DNA of 32,207 bases, from assembly GCA_002842655.1 (NCBI GenBank), contig PHDP01000010.1, positions 1-32,207 on the forward strand, given 5' to 3'. Below the pieces are notes generated by a model, which saw nothing but the letters and a program-made list of their open reading frames with translations, was not told where the DNA came from and searched no databases. Source of the stretch: Bacteroidetes bacterium HGW-Bacteroidetes-14 (lineage in GTDB: Bacteria; Bacteroidota; Bacteroidia; Bacteroidales; UBA932). Positions 1,137 through 32,207 of the stretch are shown in pieces. Made by a program: the position numbers and the translations under genes. How positions within the stretch are numbered: position 1 is the first letter of the stretch; every line of letters starts with the position of its first letter.

Positions 1137-2453
1137 TTATTTGAATTTCGCAATTGCCACTACAGGGTTGTCGGTATCTTTAAGTTTTGAGACAATCTCC
1201 TTTAGATCACCTTTTACCTCATATACTTCGGCATGTTCTATAAGTTGAACGGCACTAAACAGTGCAGAGGCATAATCATCTGCATTTATATGTCCGGGAA
1301 TAAACGGAGGTCCATTCTTAATGTCATCCAGCAATCCAAGTTTACCCTTTACAGGCTGGTTTAACAGATTAAAGAACCCGGTCTGCTTGTCGAAAATTCC
1401 GTAGCAATTGGCTCTTGGAATGGTTACAGGTCCGTTCTTGCCTTGAATGTATTCATCATAAGGCTCATGGGCATAATCTCTCATAAAAAAATTCATCATT
1501 ATGAAACGGTTGGACTCCATATAAGACAATAGATCAAGGGTGATATGCTTTCCTTTAATGTGCGTTATCCCGCTCCTGTCCAGAGAAGTGTTTGCATAAT
1601 TGCCATAATTTATGACAAAAGAGGGGAAATAATTAAGATTCTGATCAAGTGTGAATATTGTATCATTGTAAATATTTACAAACCTTACCACATCCTTAAA
1701 AGATCTTATTGAAGGGGGGTAAGCGGCGTATGTTTTTCCTTCAGAAGTTGTTTTTCCAATTCCGATTGATTCTACATAAGACTCTTTGGAAGCATACTCA
1801 GGTATACTTGCCAACGGGATCTCAAAAACTATATTAGATAACGAGTCAAAAGCAGCTCCATTAATCTTAACCGGCTCCTTACTCGAAGATCCAACTAATG
1901 AGACAAAAAGATTCTTATTAAGTCTTCTGACAAACACCAGTTTACCCGCATCAATTTGCGGTATATCTATGTTTTTAAGATAATTACCATCTCTGTCATA
2001 CATCTTAAAAAACCATGACGACAATGAATTATTTGTTATTAACGGCATCATATCAAACACCATAAATCCTCCCGTAACAGGGTCAATTTCAATTTTTGAC
2101 ATAGGAGAATACTCCTCCGGCCCTCTGCCTGTTCTGTTAAAAGTGAAGAGGTATTTGCCATCAATATCAAAAACTTTAACATCTGTTGAGTTAGAATTTC
2201 TTGACCTTACATATATCCGTCCATTCTCAATCTGAACCTTTGCCCCCATTCCAATCAGCGAACTATCGGTTGTCTCTAGGGGCACATATTTAATATCATC
2301 TGCAACTTCACTCATCTTAACTATCTTTCCACCGCCTACAGCAGCAGCAAGATCAATAACCTTAATATCACCTTGTTTTATTTCACTTTCGGAACCACAA
2401 GATGCCACGGCCAGTAAAGCGGCAGCAATAAGAGAAAATCTAAACTTTTTCAT
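1137..2453 (-). CDS. 6-bladed beta-propeller-type lipoprotein (copy B1)
   Basis: 438 aa ORF; MKKFRFSLIAAALLAVASCGSESE lipoprotein signal; NRTGRGPEEYSPMS motif; paralogue of 3735-5060. Confidence 0.88.
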   Translation of the reverse strand: MKKFRFSLIAAALLAVASCGSESEIKQGDIKVIDLAAAVGGGKIVKMSEVADDIKYVPLETTDSSLIGMGAKVQIENGRIYVRSRNSNSTDVKVFDIDGKYLFTFNRTGRGPEEYSPMSKIEIDPVTGGFMVFDMMPLITNNSLSSWFFKMYDRDGNYLKNIDIPQIDAGKLVFVRRLNKNLFVSLVGSSSKEPVKINGAAFDSLSNIVFEIPLASIPEYASKESYVESIGIGKTTSEGKTYAAYPPSIRSFKDVVRFVNIYNDTIFTLDQNLNYFPSFVINYGNYANTSLDRSGITHIKGKHITLDLLSYMESNRFIMMNFFMRDYAHEPYDEYIQGKNGPVTIPRANCYGIFDKQTGFFNLLNQPVKGKLGLLDDIKNGPPFIPGHINADDYASALFSAVQLIEHAEVYEVKGDLKEIVSKLKDTDNPVVAIAKFK

Positions 2454-2461
2454 ATTTCAAG

Positions 2462-3724
2462 TTATTTAGCAGTTACAATTACTATTACAGGATTGTCGTT
2501 TTCTGTAAGCTTAGAGGCCAGTTCAACAGCAAATTTGTTTTCGGGATTCTCTTCTGCCTGCATAATAATATCCAGTGCATTTCTAAAGTTTATCAGCTCT
2601 CCATTATTGCCTGTAAATCTAGGCCAGAACGGAAATCCTCCCTTAATGTCCTCTTTAAATCCCATTGAGCCCTTTTCCGGTTGATTAAGGAATGTGAGAT
2701 TGCCCTTTTTCTTATCGAATATGGCATAAACATTAGTGTTTTTTGTAATATTCTCTTTCCCGTCAAGACCCTTGCTTGTTCTTTCAATCGGTTCGGGTGC
2801 CATTGCTCTCAAGTTGAAAATGAGGAGAAGAAATCTGTCAGTCTCTGAAAATGCGGTAGATAATGATACAAAGTTTGACTCATTGTTGGTGTGTGTATCA
2901 TAGTCCATATCCTTTGGTGAATGATACTTTCCATAGCCTATGACATATTTATCCGAAATTTGTCCTTTACTGTCTATACCAAAAATCGTATCACACTCAG
3001 CCATCATAAACTTAACCTCATCTTTGTGTTTTATCAGATAGGGGGGGTCAATTCTCATATATACCGCCATCCCTCCATCTACCTGCTGAGTTTTCATACT
3101 GCTTAAGTTTGTTATTATCTTCTCACTCAGTATATTGAGAGAATCAACATAAACTGTAACTCCATATTTAAACTCCATCTCTCCCTCCAGACGACTAGTT
3201 TGATACCAACCAGATACAATAAAATCAGAGATTTTTACAAATGATTGGGGACGTGTTTTTTGGTTCAATTTATTAATAACCTCAATAAAATTCCCCTCTG
3301 AGTCATATCTTATGATTCTGCCCGTTCTTTCCAGAATATCTATTTCACCGTTACTATCGTTAATGTTGAATGTACTTATATTTACATACTCCTCAGGCCC
3401 TCTTCCCACCCTTGAAAACTTTTTAATAAACTTACCCTCTTCGGTAAAAATACTGATAGTGTATTTATTGTCTGATACATATATTTTCCCTTTACTGAAT
3501 TTTACGTTCCAGACATTCCCGATTACTGATTCTGCATTTGTTTCGAGGGGTATGTAGCGAATGTCAGAAGCAATTTCGCTTAAATTGACTACTCTGCCTT
3601 TTCCGACAGCTGATTCTACATCTATAACACCTTTAGCGGCTTTACCGCTTTCTGAACCACATGATGCTGCAACAAATAATATTAAAGTTGCAGTTAGGAT
3701 ACCGGACCATTGAATTTGTTTCAT
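2462..3724 (-). CDS. 6-bladed beta-propeller-type lipoprotein (copy A2)
   Basis: ORF track start is 3751, but the MKQIQWSGILTATLILFVAASC signal peptide begins at 3724; the extra 9 residues are probably not translated. Paralogue of 1-1126. Confidence 0.88.
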   Translation of the reverse strand: MKQIQWSGILTATLILFVAASCGSESGKAAKGVIDVESAVGKGRVVNLSEIASDIRYIPLETNAESVIGNVWNVKFSKGKIYVSDNKYTISIFTEEGKFIKKFSRVGRGPEEYVNISTFNINDSNGEIDILERTGRIIRYDSEGNFIEVINKLNQKTRPQSFVKISDFIVSGWYQTSRLEGEMEFKYGVTVYVDSLNILSEKIITNLSSMKTQQVDGGMAVYMRIDPPYLIKHKDEVKFMMAECDTIFGIDSKGQISDKYVIGYGKYHSPKDMDYDTHTNNESNFVSLSTAFSETDRFLLLIFNLRAMAPEPIERTSKGLDGKENITKNTNVYAIFDKKKGNLTFLNQPEKGSMGFKEDIKGGFPFWPRFTGNNGELINFRNALDIIMQAEENPENKFAVELASKLTENDNPVIVIVTAK

Positions 3725-3734
3725 ATAACCAGAT

Positions 3735-5060
3735 TTATTTGAATTTTGCAATTGCTACCACAGGATTGTCGGTATCTTTCAGTTTTGAGACGAGCTCTTT
3801 CAGATCACCTTTTACATCATATACTTCGGCATGTTCAATGAGTTGTAAAGCTGAGTATACTGTTGAAGCAAGGTCATCTGCCGAGATATCTGTAGGGAAA
3901 AAAAGAGGTCCATTATTAATATCTTCTCTTATACCTAACTTGCCTTTAACAGGTTGGTTGAGCAGATTAAATTGACCCGTTTGTTTGTCGAACATACCAT
4001 AGCAGTCAGTTCGTCTAAGGGTCAATACATCGTTTCTTTTTGTCTGAATATGTTCATCATAAGGCTCATGAGCATACTCTCTTAAATTGAGTTTCATCAG
4101 TATAAACCGATTAGATTCAACAAAAGTGGGATAGATTATGGATATATAATCACTCTTTTTGCTCGGTGTTCTATATATATCAGGTGAAGTGTTTCTATAG
4201 TTGCCATAATTAATGACAAAAGAGGGGTAATAGTTTAGTTTCTGATTAAGGGTAAAAATGGTATCATTATATTCATAAATTAACCTTGCCACATCTTTGA
4301 AAATTTTAATTGACGGAGACCAAGTGAGATATTTTTTTTCCCATTTAGCATCCCTCGACACTACTCTTCGTCCGATAGTCTCATTTGATAGATAATCAGG
4401 CACTGTGGCCATTGGAATCTCAAACACAATCTTGGACTGGGAGTCAAATGCTACTCCATGAATTTTAACCTGTTCAAAACTTTTTTCACCTACAGACGAT
4501 ATATACAGATTTTCATTTAACTTATTGACAGATTCAAGTCTTCCGGGCTTAATTACGGGCAAATTATGTGATTTTATGTAGTTACCATCTTTGTCGTACT
4601 CTTTAAATAATCCTGATTCTATTGTTGAGTTTAATGAAAGTGAGAATGTGTCAAACGCAATAAAACCACCTGTAACATTATCTATTTCAATAGATGACAT
4701 TTGAGAATACTCCTCCGGCCCTCTTCCCATTCTGTTAAAGGTGAACAGGTATTTGCCATTAATATCAAAAACCTTAATATCAAAAGAGAAATATTGTGAA
4801 GAGATGACATATATCCGGTCGTTTTTAATTTGAACGCGGGCCCTTTGTCCTATAAGAGAATTGTCGGTTGTCTCAAGCGCAACATATTTAATATCGTCAG
4901 CTACCTCACTTATATTGACAATTTTACCTTTTCCAACTGCGCCAGCAAGGTCAATTACTTTAATATCACCCTGGATTGTCTCACTTTCTGAACCACATGA
5001 TGCTGCAACAAATAATATTAAAGTTGCAGTTAGGATAACGGACCATTGAATTTGTTTCAT
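3735..5060 (-). CDS. 6-bladed beta-propeller-type lipoprotein (copy B2)
   Basis: 441 aa ORF; body matches copy B1 (C-terminus DLKELVSKLKDTDNPVVAIAKFK) but signal peptide MKQIQWSVILTATLILFVAASC matches the A copies. Confidence 0.88.
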   Translation of the reverse strand: MKQIQWSVILTATLILFVAASCGSESETIQGDIKVIDLAGAVGKGKIVNISEVADDIKYVALETTDNSLIGQRARVQIKNDRIYVISSQYFSFDIKVFDINGKYLFTFNRMGRGPEEYSQMSSIEIDNVTGGFIAFDTFSLSLNSTIESGLFKEYDKDGNYIKSHNLPVIKPGRLESVNKLNENLYISSVGEKSFEQVKIHGVAFDSQSKIVFEIPMATVPDYLSNETIGRRVVSRDAKWEKKYLTWSPSIKIFKDVARLIYEYNDTIFTLNQKLNYYPSFVINYGNYRNTSPDIYRTPSKKSDYISIIYPTFVESNRFILMKLNLREYAHEPYDEHIQTKRNDVLTLRRTDCYGMFDKQTGQFNLLNQPVKGKLGIREDINNGPLFFPTDISADDLASTVYSALQLIEHAEVYDVKGDLKELVSKLKDTDNPVVAIAKFK

Positions 5061-19582: not shown

Positions 19583-20722
19583 ATGAAAAGGATACTATTT
19601 ATAATAGCTGCAACCATAATCTCAAATGTTATTGTTGCGCAGGGGGCCTTAGACGCACTAACCTACTCTCAGATCAGATACGAAGGTACCGCAAGGTCAA
19701 TGGCAATGGGCAATGCATTTACATCGCTCGGGGGAGACACTTACGCAATTAGTATTAACCCTGCAGCTTCAGGAATTTACAGATACTCTGAATTTGCCAT
19801 TACACCTGCAGTTACTCACGATAAAAGCAGTACCCTCTATCTTGGCAACCGCGAGAATGAAGGGTGGACAAAGTTTGGCATCTCCAACCTTGGCTTTGTA
19901 GGTCACATACCTGTATCCGACAGACCTTATGGCTTTAAGAGCATAAGTTTTGGTGTAGCTGTTAATAAATTAAATAACTTTTCTTCAAGATCGGTAACAT
20001 CAGGCGTAAACGCACAGTCAAGCTGGCTGGGTAGTCTGGCAGAGAGTCTTGGAGGAATATACAACGCAAATCTTGACATTACAGACAACTGGAATCCGTT
20101 TTACGATTTCAGCGGTGCTCCTTGGAAAGCAGTTCTTGCCTGGAATGCCAACTTACTGGATCCTCTTCCCGATTCTGATGAAGATTATATTGGCGCAACA
20201 GAAAACATAAGAGGGCTTCAGATAGTTATGGGTGGTCCGGTTAACCAGGAGTTTTTCCGTGAAAGAAGCGGGAACATGTCTGAAATTGCATTCAATGCAT
20301 CTGCCAATATATCAGACAGATTTTTCATCGGCGCAAATGTTGGAGTTCAAACTTTAAGCTTTTACGACTATCAGAGATATTCCGAAAGCGCCGTTAACAA
20401 TGGCGATTTTGACTCAAGGTTTGAAAATTTCTCATATGCATATCGCCTCAATTCAAATGGAGCGGGTATTAACCTTAAAGTTGGTTTTATTGCTTTACCA
20501 TTTGCCGGGCTTAGACTTGGAGCAAGTATAGCTACTCCAACCTGGAGTTTTATTACAGATGAGTGGGATGAAAAGATAAACGCCAATTATTCTGACGGCT
20601 ACAAAAGTCAGGTATTGTCACCATACGGAGAGTACAGTTACAGAATTAACTCTCCAATGAGGTACAACCTTGGAGCCTCATATATTATCGGCAGTGTTGG
20701 AATTCTGAGTGTTGATTATGAA
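19583..20722 (+). CDS. OmpP1/FadL-like outer-membrane protein, 3' truncated at the seam
   Basis: Signal peptide [57 protein letters not shown] typical of Bacteroidetes OmpP1/FadL-like proteins. Ends abruptly at GILSVDYEG* where the next gene begins; the C-terminal strands expected for the family are missing. Confidence 0.82.
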
Positions 20723-20831
20723 GGTTAGAGCGTCGGTCAAACCGATTTGCAACAAGTGCAAGATCATTAAGCGCAAGGGCATCCTCCGGGTAATCTGCGA
20801 GAATCCCAAGCATAAGCAGCGTCAGGGGTAA
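20718..20831 (+). CDS. rpmJ: 50S ribosomal protein L36
   Basis: [37 protein letters not shown], 37 aa, canonical L36 zinc-binding Cys/His pattern. Missing from the ORF track (short). Confidence 0.96.
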
Positions 20832-20840
20832 GAGAGAACT

Positions 20841-21218
20841 ATGGCACGCATCGCAGGTGTGGATCTTCCGCGCGACAAGCGCGTTGAGACAAGCCTTACC
20901 TATATTTATGGAATCGGTCCCACAACGGCCCGCAAGATTCTGGCTCAGGTCAATATCGACCCGATCAAGCGCGTTCGCGATCTGGACGAGGCTGAAGTTG
21001 GCCGGCTCAATACGCTCATTACCAACGAAGTGATGGTAGAGGGCGATCTTCGCCGTGAAGTGAGCGCATCCATCAAGCGCCTCATGGACATCGGTTGCTA
21101 CCGTGGCCTGCGCCACCGGCGCGGACTTCCCGCCCGCGGCCAGCGCACCCGTACCAACGCACGTACCCGCAAAGGCCCGCGCAAGACCGTCGGCGCCCGC
21201 AAGAAGGATACTAAATAA
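20841..21218 (+). CDS. rpsM: 30S ribosomal protein S13
   Basis: [34 protein letters not shown]...[34 protein letters not shown]. Confidence 0.98.
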
Positions 21219-21220
21219 TA

Positions 21221-21631
21221 ATGGCTGACAAGAAGACCAAAGGGGCGGCAGCAGCGTCCAAAGTGAAGAAGAAGGCGCGTAAAAATATCGCGTCGGGCAT
21301 CGTTCACATTTTCGCCTCTTTCAATAATACGATCATTACCATCGCCGACAAATCCGGAAACACCATTTCCTGGGGTTCCAGTGGCACGGCCGGCTTCAAG
21401 GGTTCTCGCAAGAGCACTCCCTTCGCCGCCCAGTTGGCTGCCGAGCAGGCTGCCCGCAAGGCCATGGAGCATGGACTTCGCGCCGTGGAAATCTACGTGA
21501 ACGGACCCGGCAGTGGCCGCGAGGCTGCGATCCGCAGCTTGCAGAATGTCGGGCTGGAAATCGCGCTCATCCGCGACGTCACCCCGATTCCGCACAACGG
21601 ATGCCGTCCGCCCAAGCGTCGTCGCGTCTGA
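21221..21631 (+). CDS. rpsK: 30S ribosomal protein S11
   Basis: [54 protein letters not shown]...[16 protein letters not shown]. Confidence 0.98.
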
Positions 21632-21644
21632 CCTTTTAAGATTG

Positions 21645-21686
21645 GAGAGGGGCTGTGCCGGTATCCGGTGCGGCCCCTTCTCTTTG
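21645..21686 (+). terminator. Terminator-like/attenuator-like hairpin after rpsK
   Basis: GAGAGGGGC (21645-21653) pairs with GCCCCTTCTC (21673-21682) with one bulge, then TTTGT; weak U-tract. Confidence 0.5.
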
Positions 21687-21696
21687 TCCTGAACAA

Positions 21697-21960
21697 ATGA
21701 CTGACATCGGAATATACTGGGTCTTTGGACTGGCTTTGATCTTGGTCATCGCCTCACGAGTCTGGTTTCGGCGGAACCCTCTGGGCACTGCCGGACGTGT
21801 CGTTCTGCTGGTCGTTGTTGTCGGGTTGATTGTGATTCCCCCCGCAATTAAAGGGGAACTGGAAGCAACTCATGCTGCTGCGGCGTTGGCTGCGGTTGTG
21901 GTGCTGGGGACCGGGATACTGGTGCTGCGGCGCAACAATCGCGATTCAGATCCTCAGTAA
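21697..21960 (+). CDS. Small hypothetical membrane protein (87 aa, about three TM helices)
   Basis: MTDIGIYWVFGLALILVIASRVWFRRNPLGTAGRVVLLVVVVGLIVIPPAIKGELEATHAAAALAAVVVLGTGILVLRRNNRDSDPQ. Strongly hydrophobic segments; no clear Shine-Dalgarno. Confidence 0.55.
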   Translation: MTDIGIYWVFGLALILVIASRVWFRRNPLGTAGRVVLLVVVVGLIVIPPAIKGELEATHAAAALAAVVVLGTGILVLRRNNRDSDPQ

Positions 21961-22030
21961 AGACACAGATTTGGCAGGACCGCTTCACAAAAGTTTCTCG
22001 TCCGGGAGGAAAATGCTCCTCTGAGAAAAG

Positions 22031-22155
22031 AGCCTTCGGGCTGTCAACCCCCCAGAATCTGGGTTGGCGGATCGGGCCGCATTGTAAACCGGACGCGTGG
22101 CAGGTCTCGTAAAAGGGGCCGGTTGCAACCATCATCGGAAACATTATCCCCGATG
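22031..22155 (+). promoter_or_regulatory. Hairpin-rich leader upstream of rpsD (candidate structured 5' UTR)
   Basis: AGCC-TTCG-GGCT (22031-22042); CCCAG-AAT-CTGGG (22051-22063) extended by CAA/TTG; CATCGG...CCGATG (22133-22155). Confidence 0.4.
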
Positions 22156-22186
22156 GCGGATTATATCAGGAGGCATCACACGATCC

Positions 22187-22813
22187 GTGGCTCGTTACGT
22201 TGACGCCAAATGCCGGCTTTGCCGGCGTGAGGGAATGAAGCTCTTCCTCAAAGGCACCCGCTGTTTTTCTTCAAAGTGCGCCATCGAGCGCCAAAATTAT
22301 CCGCCCGGCCAGCACGGTCAGGCGCGGACTAAGATTACCACCTACGGCCAGCAACTTCGTGAGAAGCAGAAGGCCAAGCGCACGTACGGCATTCTCGAGC
22401 GCCAGTTCCGTCGGTATTTCGCCATGGCCGATTCGTATCGGGGTGTGACGGGTACTGTGCTGCTGCAAATGCTCGAACGTCGTCTCGACAATATTGTCTA
22501 CCGTCTCGGCATCGGCGCCTCGCGCGCTCAGGCCCGCCAGTTTGTCAACCACGGCCATGTGTTCGTTAATGGCCGCCGGGTTAACATCCCGTCGTTCCTG
22601 GCCAAGCCCGGCGATGAGATCGTGCTTGCGGAAGGTTCGCGCGTAAATCAAATGATCATCGCAAACCTCGAAGATGCCAAGAGTCGTGGCCGCCTGGCCT
22701 GGCTCGACTGGAATCCGGAGACGTTTTCAGGCAAGATGCTCAGCATCCCCTCGCGTGAAGACATCCCCACCGAGGTCAATGAGCAGTTGATCGTCGAGCT
22801 TTACTCGAAATAA
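22187..22813 (+). CDS. rpsD: 30S ribosomal protein S4 (GTG start)
   Basis: (M)ARYVDAKCRLCRREGMKLFLKGTRCFSSKCAIERQNYPPGQHG, canonical S4 start at GTG 22187 with AGGAGG upstream; the ORF-track start at 22097 is over-extended. Confidence 0.96.
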   Translation: MARYVDAKCRLCRREGMKLFLKGTRCFSSKCAIERQNYPPGQHGQARTKITTYGQQLREKQKAKRTYGILERQFRRYFAMADSYRGVTGTVLLQMLERRLDNIVYRLGIGASRAQARQFVNHGHVFVNGRRVNIPSFLAKPGDEIVLAEGSRVNQMIIANLEDAKSRGRLAWLDWNPETFSGKMLSIPSREDIPTEVNEQLIVELYSK

Positions 22814-22896
22814 ACCGCAGCCTGTGCGGTGGCCGCCCGGTCGCCGCATGGGTCTTTATCAGTTCGACACCCGGGTTTGAATCCAGGAGAGAATGT

Positions 22897-23907
22897 ATGG
22901 AATTTAAAAGCGTCAGAACGCCTCGCGAACTCATCACAGACAAAGAATCGTTGTCTGCCGTTTACGGGCGCTTCACTGCAGAGCCTTTCGACCGCGGATA
23001 CGGAACCACTATCGGAAATTCGCTGCGTCGTATTATGCTCAGCTCCGTTCAAGGTGCTGCCATCACGTCAATGCGCATCGAAGGAAAAACCCACGAGTTC
23101 GACACCATCGAGGGTATGCGCGAAGATTTGCTGGATGTCATCCTGAACCTCAAAAGCCTGCAAATCAAGCTCCACGGTAACAAGGGCGAGACGACGATCT
23201 CATTGAACGTCGAAGGCCCGAAGACCGTGACTGCGGCAGACTTCCAACTCAACGACTCGATCGAGATTCTCAATCCCGATCAGACCATCGCCCACCTGTC
23301 AAAAGACGGCGTGTTGAACATGGAATGCACGGTGCAAACTGGACGCGGCTACATGCCGGCAGCCCAGGTGAAGGAACAATCGGGGTTGTCCGACTCGTTC
23401 GGTGTCATCTTCCTCGACGCCGCCTTCTCACCCATCGTCAACGTCAAGTACACGGTCGAAGCTGCCCGTGCCGGTCAGCGCACCGACTTTGACCGCCTTG
23501 TTCTCGAGGTCATGACCGATGGCAGCATTGGTCCCGAAGAAGCCGTCAGCTACTCCGCCAAGGTGCTCAGCGATCAGATGAGAATCTTCATCTCGATGCG
23601 TGACCAGGCCGAGGAATTGGCCGCCGAAGAAGAGCGTCAACTGGCAGCCGATGCGACTCAGGCTCTGCAAGACAAGCTGGACAAGAGCATCGAGGAGCTG
23701 GAACTGAGCGTTCGTTCGTTCAACTGTCTGGAAGCCGCGGGTATCAAAACCATCCGCGACCTCGTTCAGAAGACCGAGAGCGAAATGCTTAAGTACCGCA
23801 ACTTCGGACGCAAGTCACTCAACGAAATCAAAAACATCCTGAAGGAAATGGGCCTGCGCTTCGGTCTCACGATCGACCCCAACACCCAGCTTCCCGAGTC
23901 ACTGTAA
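22897..23907 (+). CDS. rpoA: DNA-directed RNA polymerase subunit alpha
   Basis: AEPFDRGYGTTIGNSLRRIMLSSVQGAAITSMRIEG; alpha-CTD ELSVRSFNCLEAAGIKTIRDLVQKTESEMLKYRNFGRKSLNEIKNIL. Confidence 0.98.
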   Translation: MEFKSVRTPRELITDKESLSAVYGRFTAEPFDRGYGTTIGNSLRRIMLSSVQGAAITSMRIEGKTHEFDTIEGMREDLLDVILNLKSLQIKLHGNKGETTISLNVEGPKTVTAADFQLNDSIEILNPDQTIAHLSKDGVLNMECTVQTGRGYMPAAQVKEQSGLSDSFGVIFLDAAFSPIVNVKYTVEAARAGQRTDFDRLVLEVMTDGSIGPEEAVSYSAKVLSDQMRIFISMRDQAEELAAEEERQLAADATQALQDKLDKSIEELELSVRSFNCLEAAGIKTIRDLVQKTESEMLKYRNFGRKSLNEIKNILKEMGLRFGLTIDPNTQLPESL

Positions 23908-23945
23908 CATAACACTCTTTAACCTAAGCTTGAGGATAAATCGAA

Positions 23946-24434
23946 ATGCGCCATCAGCGCCACAAGTCGCGCCTTAACCGGACCACCGAGCACCGCGCCG
24001 CATTGATGCGGAATCTCGCAGCTGCGCTCATCGAACACGAGATGATTCGCACGACCGAGGTGAAGGCCAAACAGCTTCGCCAGTTTGTTGAACGGGTCAT
24101 TACCATCGCCAAGGTGGGATTGATTGCGGACGACAACTCCGGCGTTACCCTGGCCAAGCGCCGTCTGGCGTTTTCTCACCTGAATAACAAAGAAGCCGTG
24201 AAGAAGCTGTTCAGCGAAATCGCCCCCCGGGCGGCCTCGCGCACCGGCGGCTACACGCGTGTTGTCAAGGACGGCCGCCGCTATGGCGACGGCGCGCCCA
24301 TGGCCTACATCGAGTTAGTCGATCGTATTGTGGCGATCCCCGAGGTGGATGCTCCTGAAGAGAAGCCCACCAAGGCGAAGACCCGCAAGACCAAGAGTGC
24401 CGGGTCGGGCTCAGCCGAAGCTTCCGCAGAATAA
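23946..24434 (+). CDS. rplQ: 50S ribosomal protein L17
   Basis: MRHQRHKSRLNRTTEHRAALMRNLAAALIEHEMIRTTEVKAKQLRQFVERVITIAK. Confidence 0.97.
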   Translation: MRHQRHKSRLNRTTEHRAALMRNLAAALIEHEMIRTTEVKAKQLRQFVERVITIAKVGLIADDNSGVTLAKRRLAFSHLNNKEAVKKLFSEIAPRAASRTGGYTRVVKDGRRYGDGAPMAYIELVDRIVAIPEVDAPEEKPTKAKTRKTKSAGSGSAEASAE

Positions 24435-24483
24435 GACCTCTCCGCCCGAGCCACCGAAAAAGGTGGTTTGACGGCGGCAGAAG

Positions 24484-24537
24484 AAAAAAATGTCCGTCTG
24501 GTTTCCGCATGAATGCGTGGAGCCAGACGGTTTTTTT
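24484..24537. terminator. Rho-independent terminator after rplQ, probably bidirectional
   Basis: CCGTCTGG ... CCAGACGG followed by TTTTTTT on + strand; an A-run before the stem (AGAAGAAAAA) gives a U-rich tract on the - strand. Lies between convergent genes. Confidence 0.85.
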
Positions 24538-24587
24538 ATGCGGCGCTGTCGCATGCCCATGCGCTGATCAGTGAAACGATAAGTGCT

Positions 24588-27500
24588 TCAGATCATGCCG
24601 AGGGCCGTGCGCGCTTTTTTGTTGCGCGGATCAATGCCCAGAACCTGTTCGTAGACTTCTTGCGCCTTTCGCGCATCACCGAAGTGAGCGTGGCAGGCTG
24701 CCAAGGCCAGCATATCGGGCAGGGCTTCATGCTCCGGGGCCACCATGAGCCGACAATCGATTACCTTCCGGATGAGGACGGGGTTGTCATCGCGTATCTT
24801 TCGTGCCTGATTATAAGCTGCCAATGCTTCGTCCACATCGCCACTTTCGGTCTGCAAATCACCGAGGGTCACCAGATCGTCATAGCGTCGGGATGGGGGG
24901 GCGGAATGGTCGTCGGCACGTTTCTCCAATTCTGCCCGGGCTTCACCCGCCAGCGTTGTTGCGCGGGCCCGCAGAGGTTCTGCCTGTGCCGCGGATCCCT
25001 CGCTCTCCAACTGTTCTGCCAAACGGCGTAATTGAACCACCATCCCAGCTTTGTCACTCAGACGCTCCAATAGCGCCACAAGTCGTTCACGGACGTCACG
25101 TCGCTCGGGGGAGAGGTTTAACAACTTCTTCAGAAGGGCCGCTGCTTTCTGAGGATCGTTCTTTTCCAACCTGGCCGCCACAGTGTCACATGCGGCAACG
25201 GCTTCACCGACATCGCCGGCTTTCTCCGCAGATTCCGCCAGCATATCAGCCAGCTCATAATTTTCCGGGTTGAGACCAAAGGCCACCTGGAGCGTGCGGG
25301 TCGCCTCCTCATGGCGATTGGAGGTGGTGTATATTTCCGCCAGCTTGGTCATTTCCGCAACGGCACGAGATTTTTGCCCGAGGGTTTGCAGGAACTGGAT
25401 GAATCGTTCGCGCCCCAATGTGCTGCGGCGATTGACCGCCATTAATTTTTCGTAGGTCTTCGTGGCTTCCACAAATTGCCCCTGTCGCACCTGGGCGTCG
25501 GCAAGGCGGAGATAATCATCCAGCAGTTCAACTTCGTTGCCCACCTGCTCGAAGAGTTCAATGTAGCGCTGCAACAGGGGCACATCGTCGGGTTTGAGCT
25601 GAGTCAGTTTGCGATACACATCCACAGCTTCCTCGACGTTGCCCAGCGAGCGTTCGAGAGCTGCAAGATCCTGCATCTCGGCAATCCGCTCCTCGCGCGC
25701 GCCCATCTTCTCATACAGGTCAATTAGTGTCCGGCGTGCCTTGGGGTCTTGCGGAGCAAGAGCACGCAAACTTTTGCCAGCGTTCACCGCGTCATTAAAG
25801 CGATGCTGTTCTATGTGCCGCTCCACAAGGCGGTGATAGGCGTCGGCTGCTTGCGTGTTTTCGCCCGCCGCCACACAGGCTTCGGCAAGTTGTTCGAGAT
25901 ATTCGGGCGCGCCCGGGCGGGCAGTGACAGCCATGCGGAGCAGTTCCATCTGGCGCTTTTGATCGCCAGCCTGGAGCGCCATCGAGGCGGCCTGGACGAA
26001 CCAGCGCGATGCAACCTCCGGGCGGCCCTCGCCAAGGAAAACCGAAGCGACTTGGTGCCGGATATCCACATCGCCGGGGCGCTTTGCCAGCAGTTCATCG
26101 GCCAGTTCCCGTGCGCTTTCGTGTTCATCGTCCTTCAGCATTAACCGCATGGCTTCCACGGTTTCTTCGTCGGCCCGCTCATTATCGCCCAACTCGCGCC
26201 AGAGGTCGGCAAGTTGACGACGCACATCAATGAGGTGGGGTGTTAAAGTCAGCAGTTCTGAGTACAGGTCTGCCGCCCGGCGAAGTTCGCCCGCCGCCAG
26301 CAGACGCTCCGCCAATCCACGCATGTGAAATGTTGTCTCTTCAGGACGCCCCGAGGATTTCAACAAAGCAATACGCTGCTCCTGAAGCTCAAGATTCTCG
26401 GGTTCTGCTGTCAGGCCGCGCTCGATGGTTTCTTCCGCTGCGGCATAGTTGCCTTCCTTGATGTAATGCCCGGCCAGGTGAATGCGCTCGACCATGGCGG
26501 CCTTGGTATCATCGATGGTTTTCCAGATGAGAAGGGCTTTCTCATGAATCTCCGTTTCAACATCCTTGCCCGCCAGAACGCTTTTCACAATCTTGGCAGC
26601 GGCAGCCTTCTCTCCCTTGCCCGCCAGAACATTCGCCTGCATCATCAGGGCCTGGTTTTGTGCCGGAAGATCATTGAGGGTTTTATGATGTCGTGCGAGG
26701 GTTGCCCAGCCTCCGGCATCGTCGGGGGCCAGTTCCAGGGCCTTCTGAAGTGAGAGAGCCGCCCCGCTGACATCGCCCAGGGCCTCAAATTGTTTGGCCG
26801 CGCGGTGCAGATATTTTGCGGCGTCGGTGGGTGTTTCTTCCGCCAGACAGTTGCCCATGGCGTCGAGAGCCACGGGGTTATCTGCGTCGATGATCAGAAC
26901 CTTGCCAGCCGCCTTTTGCAGCAAGACCGGGTCGTTATTCAATCGCGCCAGATCAAGCTGACGCACTGCGTACAACGCTGCTTTGTCCGTCATCGAGCCG
27001 GCCACGCAACAATCGACCAGCATTTCCATCGTGTCGGTGTCATCGGGCTGGATTTCGTGCAACCGTTCAAATGCGGCCACCGCAGCCTCGTAGTTGCGCG
27101 CTTTTGCCTGCTTGTGACCCAGTCGATTGAGCGTGCGAATTTCGGTGCGCGTATCGTCGGCTTGCCGGGAAAACTCCGCCAGCCGCGTCATCGCCGCGAG
27201 ATTGTCGGGGTGCGTCTGAAGAAGGGTGTTCAGGATGAGACCGGCCAGTTTCAGGTCGCTGTTAGCGGCGTGTACCTCGGCGAGAGCGATGCTGAACTTG
27301 TCGAAACGCTCGGGCTGATTGTTCTCCGTTACCAGATCCACCAGACAGGTCAGAATCTCCGCATTGTTTGGCTGCTGCACATGGGCCTGCTCGTAGGTTG
27401 CAATCGCCTCTTCGATACGTCCGGCGTTCACGTGGTCGCCGGCCAGCTTCATCAGATGCGTAACTGCCTCGCCCGTGCGGTTTTCCTTCAGCAGGTTTTG

Positions 27501-30500
27501 CACGATATGTTCGCGGGCGACTGCATCGCCGGGCAGCACCTCAACTATGCGGCTCAACCAGCGCAGCGTTGTTTCTGCGTCGTCCTCGCGCTCCGCCATG
27601 CTCACGATGCGGTGCATCATTTCCACGGATTCCTGCAACCGGCGCTCACGCTCGTAAAAATGAGCCAGCGTTTCCAGAACGCCAATGTCATCAGGAAGCT
27701 CTTCAAGGGCTTCGCGATAACATGTCTCCTCCTCGGTCACCGCGCCTGCCTGTGAGAACAACTGGGCCGCTTTTAAGGAGGCTTCGCCGGCGGCGGACAT
27801 GTTCTCGACCTTGCGATAAATCTGCGAGGCGAGCCACCACGACTCGGGCGTATCAGGGGCTGTTTCAGTGATCAATCGAATGATGCGCAGGGCCTCGGTG
27901 GTCTGGTCACGCGCCAACAGCCAGTCGGTGTGGGCCCCACCAATGGTGGCGAGGAAACCGCTTCCTGCCGTTTTATCGATGTGGCGCAGAAGCTCGTCCA
28001 CTTCTTTCGGCGTACATGTTTCAAGGAGGGCCGTGCCGATGAGAAGCGAAGGCGTCCGATTGCGCGCCTTCAGCGCTTTGTCCAGCAGATCGCGCACCAC
28101 GGGCACCAACATGCGGTCGCCCCGCGTACGCCGGAAAATTGCCGCCACGGAACTGCTGGGCAGTGAAGACGAGCTAAGCTCGGCCGCATTTCGCAATGCC
28201 GATGCCGCATGGGTTTCGTCGTCCGCATCGGCAAAAGCCTGCGCTGCCTCGCAGTAGCGGTGCACCGCTTTCTCGGTGTGACCGGCGCTGTTCAGCAAAT
28301 CGCCCACAGCCAGCGTTGCCTCGGCATCCAGCGGCAGGTCCGTCAGTTCGTCAAGCAACGTGCTGGCGTCATCGGGCAGATTCATCTCGATGGCATGGCG
28401 GCAGAGGATGGTCAGTTCGTGGGCCAGAAGGGTCTGTTCTCCCTCCTCCCGTAATGCACCGGCCAGATGGCGATGAAGGCCAATATCGTCGGGCGACAGC
28501 GTCACCGCGTGGCGCAGCACCGCGGTACGTTCCGCCGTTTTCCCATCCAGGGCAAGCCGCGCCTGAATCTCATGGGAGCGCGACGATGCTTCCTCGACCG
28601 ACAGTGAGTCGAGCAACATGATGATGGCTTTTACGTCGTGCGGATCGGCTTCAAGAAGCAGATCGCACATCTCGCGCCGTTCGCCGGGGCTCAGCGATGC
28701 AGCTGCATCTCCCTCGTCCAACGCACGGCGGAGGTTCGCAGCCGCTTCCTCTTCGCGACCCTGCATGTGCTGGATACGTCCCAGTCGGGCAAGGTCTGCG
28801 GGGAGCGATGCCGGCAGATCGATTAAACGAAGCATCACGCTTTCGGCACCGGCCAGGTCGTCCTGTTGCAGGAACAAACGCGCGGCTTCACGAAACGCTT
28901 CCGCAGCAAACTCCGGCACGTTCAAAGCCAGATGCAGCGATGCGACCTCCTCAAAAATGCGAGCGTCGGCGGGCTCCGGAAACTGCGATGTGGCGCGACC
29001 GAACAACTGAATGGCTCGAACCGGATCGTTGAACTCATCGCGATAAACTTGAGCCAATTGAAGCATCTGAGACTTTGCCTCGGCGGTTCGCCCGAGTTCA
29101 GTCAGGTAATCGGCAAATTCCGAACGGAAACTGAGATCCGCACCCTGGAGTTTGACGATGGACTCATACTGCGCGGCCACGTCGTCGGGCGCGGAAGACT
29201 CGCGCATAACCGCCAGCAACTTGCGGATGTTCGGGGCGGCCTTCTCGAAACCTTCATGTTCATGCACCAGCGAAGCCAGACGCCGGAGCGTATCCACCGA
29301 TTGGGTGTCGTACTCCAGAATGCGCGCAAGAAGCGTGGAAGCCTCCTTGTAAGCCCTGCGGTCGATCAGACTGTCGGCAAGCTGCCGCATCTGTTCCAGC
29401 GCTTCCTGCTCCTGACCCGACTCCAGCAGTACCTGGCTCAGACTCTGGCGCGCCTGCGTATTTTCCGGATCGGTTTCCACAACATTGCGCAGAGCCCGCG
29501 CTGCCCGTTCGGGGTCGGTTGCGCGCGACGCTTCGGCCACCGCAAGCCAGTTTTCAACTGCCAGACGCGGATGCTTCTGCCGAATGTGGATGGTCGCCAA
29601 CTGCTCGCGTGCATCCAAATCTTCGGGTGAGAATTGCAGCCACCGCTGCGTTTCGTCCCGCGCGTCCTTCAGCCGCTTTTGCTCCAGTGAACGACGGCTT
29701 TCCTCGCGATAAAACTCGGACCCCGGACCGGCTTCGCCCAGCTCCAGAAGACGTTCCAACGTTGCCTTGAAGGCGGCCATGTTGCCGGCCGTCCGTTCGG
29801 CGTTCGCCAGCGTGAGCGTTAACACTGGGTCTTCCGGTTCCAGCAACACCGCCTGACGCAGCGCCTCGGCGGCTTCCTCCGGTTTGTCTGCACCGGAACA
29901 ATCGTGGGCAATTTCGCGCAGCATCTGCACCGCACCGGGCGTATCGCCGGCGCGTTCGCAGGCTTGAGCCAGCTCGATTCGCAACCGACTGTTGTCCGGC
30001 TCCAACTGCACCAGCCGTTGGCGTACATCCAACTCAGTAGGGATATCTCCGGCCTTTTCGGCCGCATGCAACAACACCGAGAATTGGCGGTTCGCCTCGG
30101 CGAGACGCCCTGCCCCGGCCAGATGCTCGGCAAGGGAACGACGGGTCATCTGGTCTTCGGGGAACAATGCCAGATACTCGTGATTGAGGGCAAGCAGTGC
30201 GTCCAGATCATCGGGGGCCAGAGCCTCCTGCCGCGCGAGTAAATCGCGCCATGTGGCCTGAGCCTCATCGCGCTGCGAGGTCTGCAACTGAAGGTCAGCC
30301 AAACGCCGGCGCAATGGTTCTTCATCGGGGGTCGAATCCAGAGCCTGTCCGAGCGCTTCGATCGCCTTGTGCGCTTCTCCGGCCTCATTCAGTTGATTCG
30401 CCAACCGTACGAGGTAACCTGCGCGATCCGTGTGCAGCCCCACTTCGCCCGCAAACCTTGCAGCGTCTGTCAGCAGCCGGCCTTCTTCGGGCACGAGTTC

Positions 30501-32207
30501 CAGCCCTGCCAGCGCGATACTCAGCGCCTCGCTGAAATCATCGCCGGTCGTCAGCTCATGCACCGCTGCGCCATAAAAAGCCATGGCTTCGTGGGCGGTC
30601 CCGGCTTGAGACGCCAACCGATACAGTGCCAGCGCCTGCCCGCCATTCGCCAGCGAAGCGTGGGCGGCGGCCTCGGCAAGCAACTCGCGGGCCTCGGCGA
30701 CCTTCTCCGGACCCATGAGATGCGGTGCCAGATCCGCTGATGCGGCCATGGCCTCGCGTTCTTCGTCAGCTTTCCATAGCAGGCGAACGCGCCGATGGAT
30801 TGTTTCCACGTCATCAGGTTTCGACTGCAAAAACCGGCCGATGCATTCCAGCGCGGTTTGCGTATCGCCCAAACTTTCCGCAGCGTCCGCCGCAGCCAGC
30901 GCCATATCGGCCGCATCATCGGCACGACCCCGGTCCGCCAGAATATCGGCCACCATCAGACGGAAGGAGGGAGTCGGGTCCAGAGATGCTGCTTCGCGAA
31001 GTGCCGCAGTGTCTTCGTCGGGCTCGCTGCGCGCATGATGCACTTCCGCCAGGTCCAGACATTCCAGCGCCGCCGGTTGGTTCTTGTCGGATTTGCGAAG
31101 TTCGTCCACGATATCGCGACGCAACGCAACATCGTCGGGGGTTTGAAATTTGATCCGGTACAGGTATTCAAGCGTTGTTGCGTGGTCGTTTTTCGCTCGA
31201 AAAATTTCGGCGCAAGCCCTCAGCTCCCGCGCGGCCTCTGCCGGGTCACCCATGTCTGTGGCGATGCGCGCCAGACTCTCGTGGGCCTCCACACTTTCGG
31301 GCTCCACGCTGAACCACTTGCGCACGGTTTCGGCGGCCAACACGAGGTCGCCGCGCTCCATCATCAGATTCACGCTCTCAAAAATGTGCGCCTTCGCCCG
31401 GTCATACTCGCCATCCTGAAGCAAGTGGTCGGCAATGCGCGCGCGCATTTTCAGGCGGCCCGGATCGAATTGGAGAATCTTCTCCAGAAGTAGCACCGCT
31501 TCGTCGCCCTTGCCCTCGGCTGTCAGCAACTCGGCCGCTTTCTCCAGGGCCGTGGCGGCGTTGTTGATATCATGGCGCAACTCATGGGCGTTAGCCAGGC
31601 GCAAATGTAGTTGAGCGTCGTCGGGCGTCAACTCGGCCAGTTGGGTCAGCACCCCCACGTTGTCGGCCTGCCGGCCCGCCACTTCGCGGATGGATGCCAT
31701 CTGGTCCAGCAGCGCCGCCAGCATCGCCGTGTCGTTGCGAAGTTCCGCCCCGTGGATGCGCATGAACAGAATGTCTTCATCCTCGGGTAACAGCGCCGTG
31801 GCGGCCGTCAGCACTTCGTTTGCCGTTTCGTGATTGCCCGCTTCCAGCGCCACTTCCGCAGCCTGGCAGTACTCATCGCGGGCCGCCACCAGATTACCCG
31901 CCTCGGCCAGCATTTGCGCCAGCATCATCCGTGGTGCCGCCGCAGACGGATGCCATGCGATGGCCTTGCGAATGGCTGCCTCGCGCCCTTCCGCGTTACC
32001 AGCTTCCGCGGCAACCCTGGCCTCATCCAACGCGAACGACGCCAGCTTGTCGTACCATTCCGGGTCCAGCGGCAACTTCAGCGCGTGGGCCACGCGAGCG
32101 GCCGCGTCCAAACGTGGCAGGTTCAAGGCCAGAGCGGCCAAATCTACCAGAGAGCCACCACTCACTCCCGGGCATGTCTTGATCGTGCATTTGAAGGTGC
32201 GGCGGGG
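24588..32207 (-). CDS. Giant tetratricopeptide-repeat (TPR) solenoid protein, >=2525 aa; frame open at right window edge
   Basis: Uninterrupted reverse frame; repeated A-x-x-x-Y/L-x-x-A / L-P-D-D TPR-like helical pairs throughout (e.g. YEQVLGIDPRNKKARTALGMI, AIATYEQAHVQQPNNAEILTCLVDL). The track starts at GTG 32165, but the 14 upstream codons to the window edge (PRRTFKCTIKTCPG) have no stop. Confidence 0.93.
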   Translation of the reverse strand, partial: PRRTFKCTIKTCPGVSGGSLVDLAALALNLPRLDAAARVAHALKLPLDPEWYDKLASFALDEARVAAEAGNAEGREAAIRKAIAWHPSAAAPRMMLAQMLAEAGNLVAARDEYCQAAEVALEAGNHETANEVLTAATALLPEDEDILFMRIHGAELRNDTAMLAALLDQMASIREVAGRQADNVGVLTQLAELTPDDAQLHLRLANAHELRHDINNAATALEKAAELLTAEGKGDEAVLLLEKILQFDPGRLKMRARIADHLLQDGEYDRAKAHIFESVNLMMERGDLVLAAETVRKWFSVEPESVEAHESLARIATDMGDPAEAARELRACAEIFRAKNDHATTLEYLYRIKFQTPDDVALRRDIVDELRKSDKNQPAALECLDLAEVHHARSEPDEDTAALREAASLDPTPSFRLMVADILADRGRADDAADMALAAADAAESLGDTQTALECIGRFLQSKPDDVETIHRRVRLLWKADEEREAMAASADLAPHLMGPEKVAEARELLAEAAAHASLANGGQALALYRLASQAGTAHEAMAFYGAAVHELTTGDDFSEALSIALAGLELVPEEGRLLTDAARFAGEVGLHTDRAGYLVRLANQLNEAGEAHKAIEALGQALDSTPDEEPLRRRLADLQLQTSQRDEAQATWRDLLARQEALAPDDLDALLALNHEYLALFPEDQMTRRSLAEHLAGAGRLAEANRQFSVLLHAAEKAGDIPTELDVRQRLVQLEPDNSRLRIELAQACERAGDTPGAVQMLREIAHDCSGADKPEEAAEALRQAVLLEPEDPVLTLTLANAERTAGNMAAFKATLERLLELGEAGPGSEFYREESRRSLEQKRLKDARDETQRWLQFSPEDLDAREQLATIHIRQKHPRLAVENWLAVAEASRATDPERAARALRNVVETDPENTQARQSLSQVLLESGQEQEALEQMRQLADSLIDRRAYKEASTLLARILEYDTQSVDTLRRLASLVHEHEGFEKAAPNIRKLLAVMRESSAPDDVAAQYESIVKLQGADLSFRSEFADYLTELGRTAEAKSQMLQLAQVYRDEFNDPVRAIQLFGRATSQFPEPADARIFEEVASLHLALNVPEFAAEAFREAARLFLQQDDLAGAESVMLRLIDLPASLPADLARLGRIQHMQGREEEAAANLRRALDEGDAAASLSPGERREMCDLLLEADPHDVKAIIMLLDSLSVEEASSRSHEIQARLALDGKTAERTAVLRHAVTLSPDDIGLHRHLAGALREEGEQTLLAHELTILCRHAIEMNLPDDASTLLDELTDLPLDAEATLAVGDLLNSAGHTEKAVHRYCEAAQAFADADDETHAASALRNAAELSSSSLPSSSVAAIFRRTRGDRMLVPVVRDLLDKALKARNRTPSLLIGTALLETCTPKEVDELLRHIDKTAGSGFLATIGGAHTDWLLARDQTTEALRIIRLITETAPDTPESWWLASQIYRKVENMSAAGEASLKAAQLFSQAGAVTEEETCYREALEELPDDIGVLETLAHFYERERRLQESVEMMHRIVSMAEREDDAETTLRWLSRIVEVLPGDAVAREHIVQNLLKENRTGEAVTHLMKLAGDHVNAGRIEEAIATYEQAHVQQPNNAEILTCLVDLVTENNQPERFDKFSIALAEVHAANSDLKLAGLILNTLLQTHPDNLAAMTRLAEFSRQADDTRTEIRTLNRLGHKQAKARNYEAAVAAFERLHEIQPDDTDTMEMLVDCCVAGSMTDKAALYAVRQLDLARLNNDPVLLQKAAGKVLIIDADNPVALDAMGNCLAEETPTDAAKYLHRAAKQFEALGDVSGAALSLQKALELAPDDAGGWATLARHHKTLNDLPAQNQALMMQANVLAGKGEKAAAAKIVKSVLAGKDVETEIHEKALLIWKTIDDTKAAMVERIHLAGHYIKEGNYAAAEETIERGLTAEPENLELQEQRIALLKSSGRPEETTFHMRGLAERLLAAGELRRAADLYSELLTLTPHLIDVRRQLADLWRELGDNERADEETVEAMRLMLKDDEHESARELADELLAKRPGDVDIRHQVASVFLGEGRPEVASRWFVQAASMALQAGDQKRQMELLRMAVTARPGAPEYLEQLAEACVAAGENTQAADAYHRLVERHIEQHRFNDAVNAGKSLRALAPQDPKARRTLIDLYEKMGAREERIAEMQDLAALERSLGNVEEAVDVYRKLTQLKPDDVPLLQRYIELFEQVGNEVELLDDYLRLADAQVRQGQFVEATKTYEKLMAVNRRSTLGRERFIQFLQTLGQKSRAVAEMTKLAEIYTTSNRHEEATRTLQVAFGLNPENYELADMLAESAEKAGDVGEAVAACDTVAARLEKNDPQKAAALLKKLLNLSPERRDVRERLVALLERLSDKAGMVVQLRRLAEQLESEGSAAQAEPLRARATTLAGEARAELEKRADDHSAPPSRRYDDLVTLGDLQTESGDVDEALAAYNQARKIRDDNPVLIRKVIDCRLMVAPEHEALPDMLALAACHAHFGDARKAQEVYEQVLGIDPRNKKARTALGMI

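Follow-up and report, generated by a model that had tools for sequence, protein, structure and literature searches.

A zinc-ribbon-capped giant repeat protein of Sumerlaeota and its SPOR-domain membrane partner: a candidate envelope-tethered scaffold

Here we present a family of giant bacterial proteins in which a DnaG-type zinc ribbon heads a long array of 54-residue helical units, and whose genes usually stand directly downstream of a gene for a membrane protein with SPOR domains. The member described here lies at the right end of a stretch of 32,207 nucleotides (the window), contig PHDP01000010.1, deposited under Bacteroidetes bacterium HGW-Bacteroidetes-14; the features of the window are collected in Table 1. 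We give about one chance in two to the reading that this protein is a cytoplasmic scaffold, consisting of the zinc ribbon and a solenoid of about 46 units whose number selection keeps constant, which would be docked at the cell envelope by its SPOR membrane partner. An earlier note on this DNA had thought of a very large scaffold, and that idea gains support, since the protein lacks a catalytic domain, a signal peptide and any transmembrane segment.

Table 1. Features of the right-hand part of the window, with positions counted from its first base
Feature	Position	Strand	Remark
Assembly junction, Bacteroidota/Sumerlaeota	20706..20727	.	at a short stretch common to both parts
rpmJ (L36, presumed), first alpha-operon gene of the Sumerlaeota part	20718..20831	+	sequence
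rpsM (S13, presumed)	20841..21218	+	translation
rpsK (S11, presumed)	21221..21631	+	translation
rpsD (S4, presumed)	22097..22813	+	translation; true start probably inside the frame
rpoA	22897..23907	+	100% identical to HGW-BRC1-1
rplQ (L17)	23946..24434	+	convergent with the giant gene
Giant gene of class A, 3' 98% (residues 60-2598 of 2598 and the stop codon)	24588..32207	-	open at the contig end
Array of predicted 54-residue helical units	24591..32042	-	39 detected; about 46 fit residues 115-2598
Predicted DnaG-type zinc ribbon, C-terminal half	32049..32207	-	with zinc ligands C66 and C71

The window does not come from a single genome, a point that escaped the earlier note. Its genes are Bacteroidota-like from base 1 to about 20705, the GC content, about 0.40 at first, jumps to about 0.58 near base 20,700, and bases 20706-32206 match PHCB01000013.1, a contig of the metagenome-assembled genome 'candidate division BRC1 bacterium HGW-BRC1-1' (phylum Sumerlaeota; Horonobe groundwater, Hokkaido, PMC8092238), at 100% identity with zero mismatches over 11,501 bp. 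The last gene left of the junction stops at 381 residues, against 461-529 in homologues from the genus to which the bin belongs, and a short stretch at the join is common to both the Bacteroidota and the Sumerlaeota sequence. All this shows that two sequences were wrongly joined in the contig and that the giant gene and the alpha operon belong to Sumerlaeota, the phylum in which the identity of RpoA to that of HGW-BRC1-1 also places the right half of the window. The two bins may well share a metagenome as their source, judging from this identity. The chimera also explains why a search of 40 genomes related to the bin of the window did not turn up the giant. The window ends where the contig ends (C180, one of the 202 contigs of the 2.14-Mb bin G000). 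Through the mis-join, the deposited Bacteroidota bin carries a foreign alpha ribosomal operon, from Sumerlaeota, which could lead phylogenies built on marker genes astray. In the Bacteroidota part, positions 1137-5060 encode three predicted lipoproteins that are tandem paralogues.

We take the four ribosomal protein genes at the head of the operon to be rpmJ, rpsM, rpsK and rpsD from knowledge of their families; between rpsK and rpsD lies a frame for a small predicted membrane protein (21655-21960). The giant had been described as convergent to this operon; its convergence with rplQ is real, although neither belongs to the genome of the window's first 20.7 kb. Five Sumerlaeaceae genomes carry the same gene beside rplQ, and the arrangement is not conserved elsewhere.

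The gene itself is intact. The minus-strand frame of the window, open over 2539 residues up to the contig end, had been noted as a single frame of more than 7.6 kb that stays open at the right edge, and it is complete in PHCB01000013.1 (L003:11692-19488, minus strand), where 7,797 bases with an ATG start encode 2598 amino acids, 59 N-terminal residues more than the window version. Five further genomes, including one assembled as a single contig of 3,289,105 bases, carry uninterrupted orthologues of 2601-2610 amino acids, which rules out that several smaller genes had been merged by frameshifts or that repeats had collapsed. The six Sumerlaeaceae orthologues (2598-2610 amino acids) align over 2592-2606 residues with few gaps at 33-67% identity. 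Since about 2594 of the 2598 residues align even at 33-37% identity, the number of repeats has stayed fixed while the sequence drifted, which argues for a constrained structure.

Genes for solenoids with this ribbon are present in 37 of the 40 Sumerlaeota-like genomes (G041-G080), and their products fall into four classes: class A of about 2.4-3.8 thousand residues (shorter in a few genomes), class B of about 1.3-2.1 thousand, class C of about 0.5 thousand, and class D, which is the ribbon only, of about 0.13 thousand (128-142 residues). In a tree of the ribbons the Sumerlaeota class A proteins form one clade (97/93), while classes C (100/99) and D (100/99) form separate clades. Six genomes that fall outside the RpoA clade of Sumerlaeota have related ribbons as well, so that a restriction of the family to Sumerlaeota is rejected. 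Classes B and C have conserved neighbours, which we take from family knowledge to be nadC, der and clpB, and these show no functional pattern. At two loci (L149 and L152, in G117 and G262) the gene for a 270-residue ribbon protein seems to share an operon with V-type ATPase genes and with those for two PilB-like ATPases, an ExeA-like AAA protein and a TPR lipoprotein.

An N-terminal domain beyond the window had been anticipated, and extension into PHCB01000013.1 reveals one, a DnaG-type (CHC2) zinc ribbon whose identification is supported by profile searches, an AlphaFold model and Foldseek; two of its zinc ligands, C44 and H47, lie in the part outside the window (L003). The first 154 residues of the giant match PF01807 (CHC2) at E 0.0011 and 20.3 bits, below the curated cut-off of 24.9, but the profile matches 16 of 18 family members at E values up to 1 (best 2e-7), and a family profile of the ribbon retrieves Aquifex DnaG at E 6e-4. 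C44, P45, H47, C66 and C71 are invariant in the alignment of the 18 members. The predicted model of the ribbon (pLDDT 90.3, pTM 0.84) finds only DnaG zinc domains at significant levels in Foldseek (2au3 at E 3.9e-5 and 1d0q at E 7.3e-4; the next match has E 1.6). The ribbon is like the zinc-binding domain of DnaG primase in predicted fold and in the order of the ligands, C-P-x-H...C...C, over about 100 residues; it differs in having C-x4-C where DnaG has C-x2-C, in replacing the PSF motif of DnaG by R-[ST]-L, and in being followed by the helical array and by no TOPRIM primase domain, Pfam and NCBIfam scans detecting neither a TOPRIM nor an RNA polymerase domain after it. A phage origin was considered and set aside, a weak primase match being all that pointed to it.

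Perhaps the ribbon keeps a primase-like contact with single-stranded DNA or RNA, and the giant is a nucleic-acid-linked scaffold through which, for example, the chromosome or a ribonucleoprotein would be held at the envelope. The homologous domain of DnaG binds the template, basic positions are kept across the classes (K/R41 in 18 of 18, K/R48 in 16 of 18, R53 in 17 of 18 with K in the other, and K/R65 in 15 of 18), and the ribbon also exists as the free-standing proteins of class D. These basic residues are compatible with nucleic-acid binding and needless for a pure protein scaffold, and they count against the reading that we prefer. The net charge of the ribbon, however, is near zero, the PSF motif and the spacing of the second metal pair have changed, neither TOPRIM nor a helicase-binding part follows, and several Sumerlaeota genomes have separate matches of the size of DnaG itself; on balance we consider a nucleic-acid role unlikely.

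For the remainder of the protein, the earlier note's picture of a giant built only of TPR-like helical pairs stands as far as the family is concerned (TPR_19 at E 4e-67 and TPR_14 at E 2e-66, far above cut-off, with no enzyme domain in the Pfam scan), but it fails on the added zinc ribbon and on the length of the unit, which is 54 and not 34 residues. In the self-comparison for repeat length that the note had proposed, the autocorrelation of the giant peaks at a lag of 54 residues and then at 108, with 162 and 216 raised and lags of 20 and 34 subordinate, and all long members of the family peak at 54 (z up to 42). At the lag of 68 expected of 34-residue tandems, z is only 2.8 for this giant and 0-5.5 across the giants, so a canonical 34-residue TPR tandem is ruled out. 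As controls, the TPR lipoproteins of L128 and L152 show periods of 34, 68 and 102 with no signal at 54, and the strongest lag of E. coli BcsC is 34. A TPR model of 24 positions fell back on half repeats, so the autocorrelation and a model of the 54-residue unit took its place; the latter recovers 39 units from the giant and between 38 and 61 from the other proteins of class A, with 54 residues as the usual spacing. The consensus of 1,044 units, PdDxelRerLAeLLexlGrxeEAxeeLlxLAelyxexGdxeeAlexLeraLeLd, keeps the signature residues of TPRs (LA..Y...G....A...L..A and P), and against PDB sequences it gave only matches of about 60 residues, or gapped ones, to 34-residue TPR chains. From its hydrophobic pattern the unit is probably made of three helices, of which the middle one would belong to two TPR motifs that overlap.

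The unit is not unique to proteins with the ribbon, an idea that had to be given up, since it also occurs in a relative of SgmX (below) and in a 2724-residue protein of G114. The latter (L275:4609-12780, on G114:C91) has 42 units and no zinc ribbon, and its genome is without the SPOR partner.

SgmX (Bd2492) is a cytoplasmic TPR hub with a scaffold role at the pole in Myxococcus and Bdellovibrio (PMC7519303, PMC11580455), and the giant might be a hub of this type that activates type IV pili by recruiting the PilB motor to the pole. Both proteins are cytoplasmic, without signal peptide or transmembrane segment, and a G170 protein of the SgmX family (L285:3924-6899) has four consecutive 54-residue units at its N-terminus, of the kind that makes up the array of the giant; this relative suggests that the published count of TPRs in SgmX may have to be revised in terms of 54-residue units. 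Positions 13-180 of the SgmX model (NF052243) align to the giant at equal length, SgmX brings about the localisation of PilB (PMC11580455), and a canonical PilB scores above cut-off in 31 of the 40 Sumerlaeota genomes. A full-length match to the family, however, exceeds 1800 bits, its cut-off, while the giant reaches 68; SgmX has about 1060 residues, no zinc ribbon and no reported SPOR partner, and the giant differs on all three, its own partner being a SPOR protein. T2SSE neighbours of class C and other loci are few and at about chance level, because each Sumerlaeota genome (G041-G080) has an unusually large set of 6-21 matches to PilB/GspE-type ATPases; the link to type IV pili through PilB or PilT neighbours was accordingly rejected as no enrichment. 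A pilus-activating hub therefore strikes us as quite unlikely.

The scaffold reading rests further on the gene that usually lies directly upstream of class A, which encodes a protein of 870-1220 amino acids; for the giant described here this gene stands outside the window and so was not seen by the earlier note. Gaps were measured at 15 loci; at 14 of them the gene is on the same strand, 45-289 bp away, and the other (L064) is interrupted near a contig end. The N-terminus of the partner is hydrophobic; after it come a LamG-like or NHL region, SPOR domains (two or three), a transmembrane segment, a linker and a C-terminal domain. SPOR is above the Pfam cut-off in all seven partners scanned, and hydropathy scans find a single internal transmembrane segment in 15 of 15 partners and none in the 53 zinc-ribbon proteins. 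Positive residues follow the segment in most partners, and the linker is acidic (pI 4.1-4.6) in 10 of the 14 that could be measured. Its best conserved piece (mean column identity 66%) is the C-terminal domain, for which Pfam and PDB sequence searches gave no relative and which is predicted to be a ConA-like jelly roll (pLDDT 92; Foldseek). A signal peptide and one transmembrane segment would put the SPOR domains in the periplasm and the ConA-like domain in the cytoplasm. At two class A loci without a SPOR neighbour (L135 and L140, in G060 and G069), the giant is preceded by genes for a NamZ-type exo-muramidase and a carboxypeptidase-regulatory-like repeat protein, which is again a cell-wall context.

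The ConA-like domain is single-copy in 38 of the 40 Sumerlaeota, a co-occurrence confounded by shared ancestry, so that the independent evidence comes from outside the phylum, where among about 346 other genomes the domain is found only in G208 and G345, once in each; there the partner lies directly upstream of a ribbon solenoid of 1251 and 3057 residues, respectively. By hit positions the partner and zinc-ribbon genes are adjacent in about 24 of the 40 partner-bearing genomes, and they are truly apart in at least 11, which speaks against the scaffold reading. This separation in a good part of the phylum, and the unrelated neighbours of classes B and C, would be expected if the pairing were an operon convenience and the giant a general adaptor or an assembly chaperone that serves many clients and is not tied to one place, but the two genes are retained together in 38 genomes, including the two outside the phylum that have them side by side, and we regard such an adaptor as very doubtful. 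That the giant is an artefact of assembly or annotation, with fused or collapsed repeats, is almost certainly wrong, for although the window contig is itself chimeric, its join lies outside the giant gene, and independent assemblies, one of them a single-contig genome, hold intact genes for 2.6-3.8 thousand residues that already refute the idea.

SPOR domains bind peptidoglycan at division sites in other bacteria. For the envelope-docked scaffold, the SPOR domains of the partner would likewise bind peptidoglycan in the periplasm, while its acidic tail and conserved ConA-like domain would reach into the cytoplasm, where the latter would dock the giant. Docking might occur at a defined site of the envelope, such as the septum, the new pole or a zone of peptidoglycan synthesis, and the solenoid and the zinc ribbon could then recruit further proteins to that site, in the manner of a FimV/HubP landmark or the SgmX hub. 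Among known systems, LapB (YciM) also joins a cytoplasmic TPR solenoid to a zinc module, but it has about 390 residues, a membrane anchor and a C-terminal rubredoxin-type module, unlike the giant, which shows generic TPR matches only. The logic of FimV/HubP is that of a periplasmic peptidoglycan-binding part, one transmembrane segment, an acidic cytoplasmic region and a TPR-type hub (PMC12918733). With the topology proposed above, the partner would match the peptidoglycan-binding module, the segment and the acidic region, with SPOR in place of LysM; Pfam and NCBIfam scans find no LysM or FimV domain in it. FimV, however, is a single chain with a LysM-like part and a C-terminal FimV TPR domain, whereas here the hub is a separate protein of 2.5-3.8 thousand residues and the membrane protein ends in a ConA-like domain.

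Scaffolds of such a kind are already known, and it is the combination of parts that seems to be new. The literature searched held no earlier description of a primase ribbon together with a 54-residue array, a SPOR/ConA-like partner and near-universality in a phylum, and nothing relevant on CHC2 with TPR, on Sumerlaeota with TPR or SPOR, or on 54-residue or three-helix TPRs. A bolder view, which we hold tentatively and think somewhat unlikely, is that Sumerlaeota, and sporadically other phyla, have an undescribed trans-envelope organising system, in which a SPOR/ConA-like anchor and a solenoid of three-helix units, capped by a repurposed primase ribbon, 2.5-3.8 thousand residues long and of fixed length, would act as a molecular ruler or hub that patterns the envelope, with the smaller, paralogous ribbon proteins of classes B to D as additional members of the network. 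The SgmX family has the 54-residue unit too, and automatic annotation lists this unit as plain TPR. A domain of the replication primase would have been reused as the head of a scaffold. If the scaffold reading is true, a cytoplasmic scaffold family that is near-universal in one uncultured phylum joins the short list of bacterial hubs.
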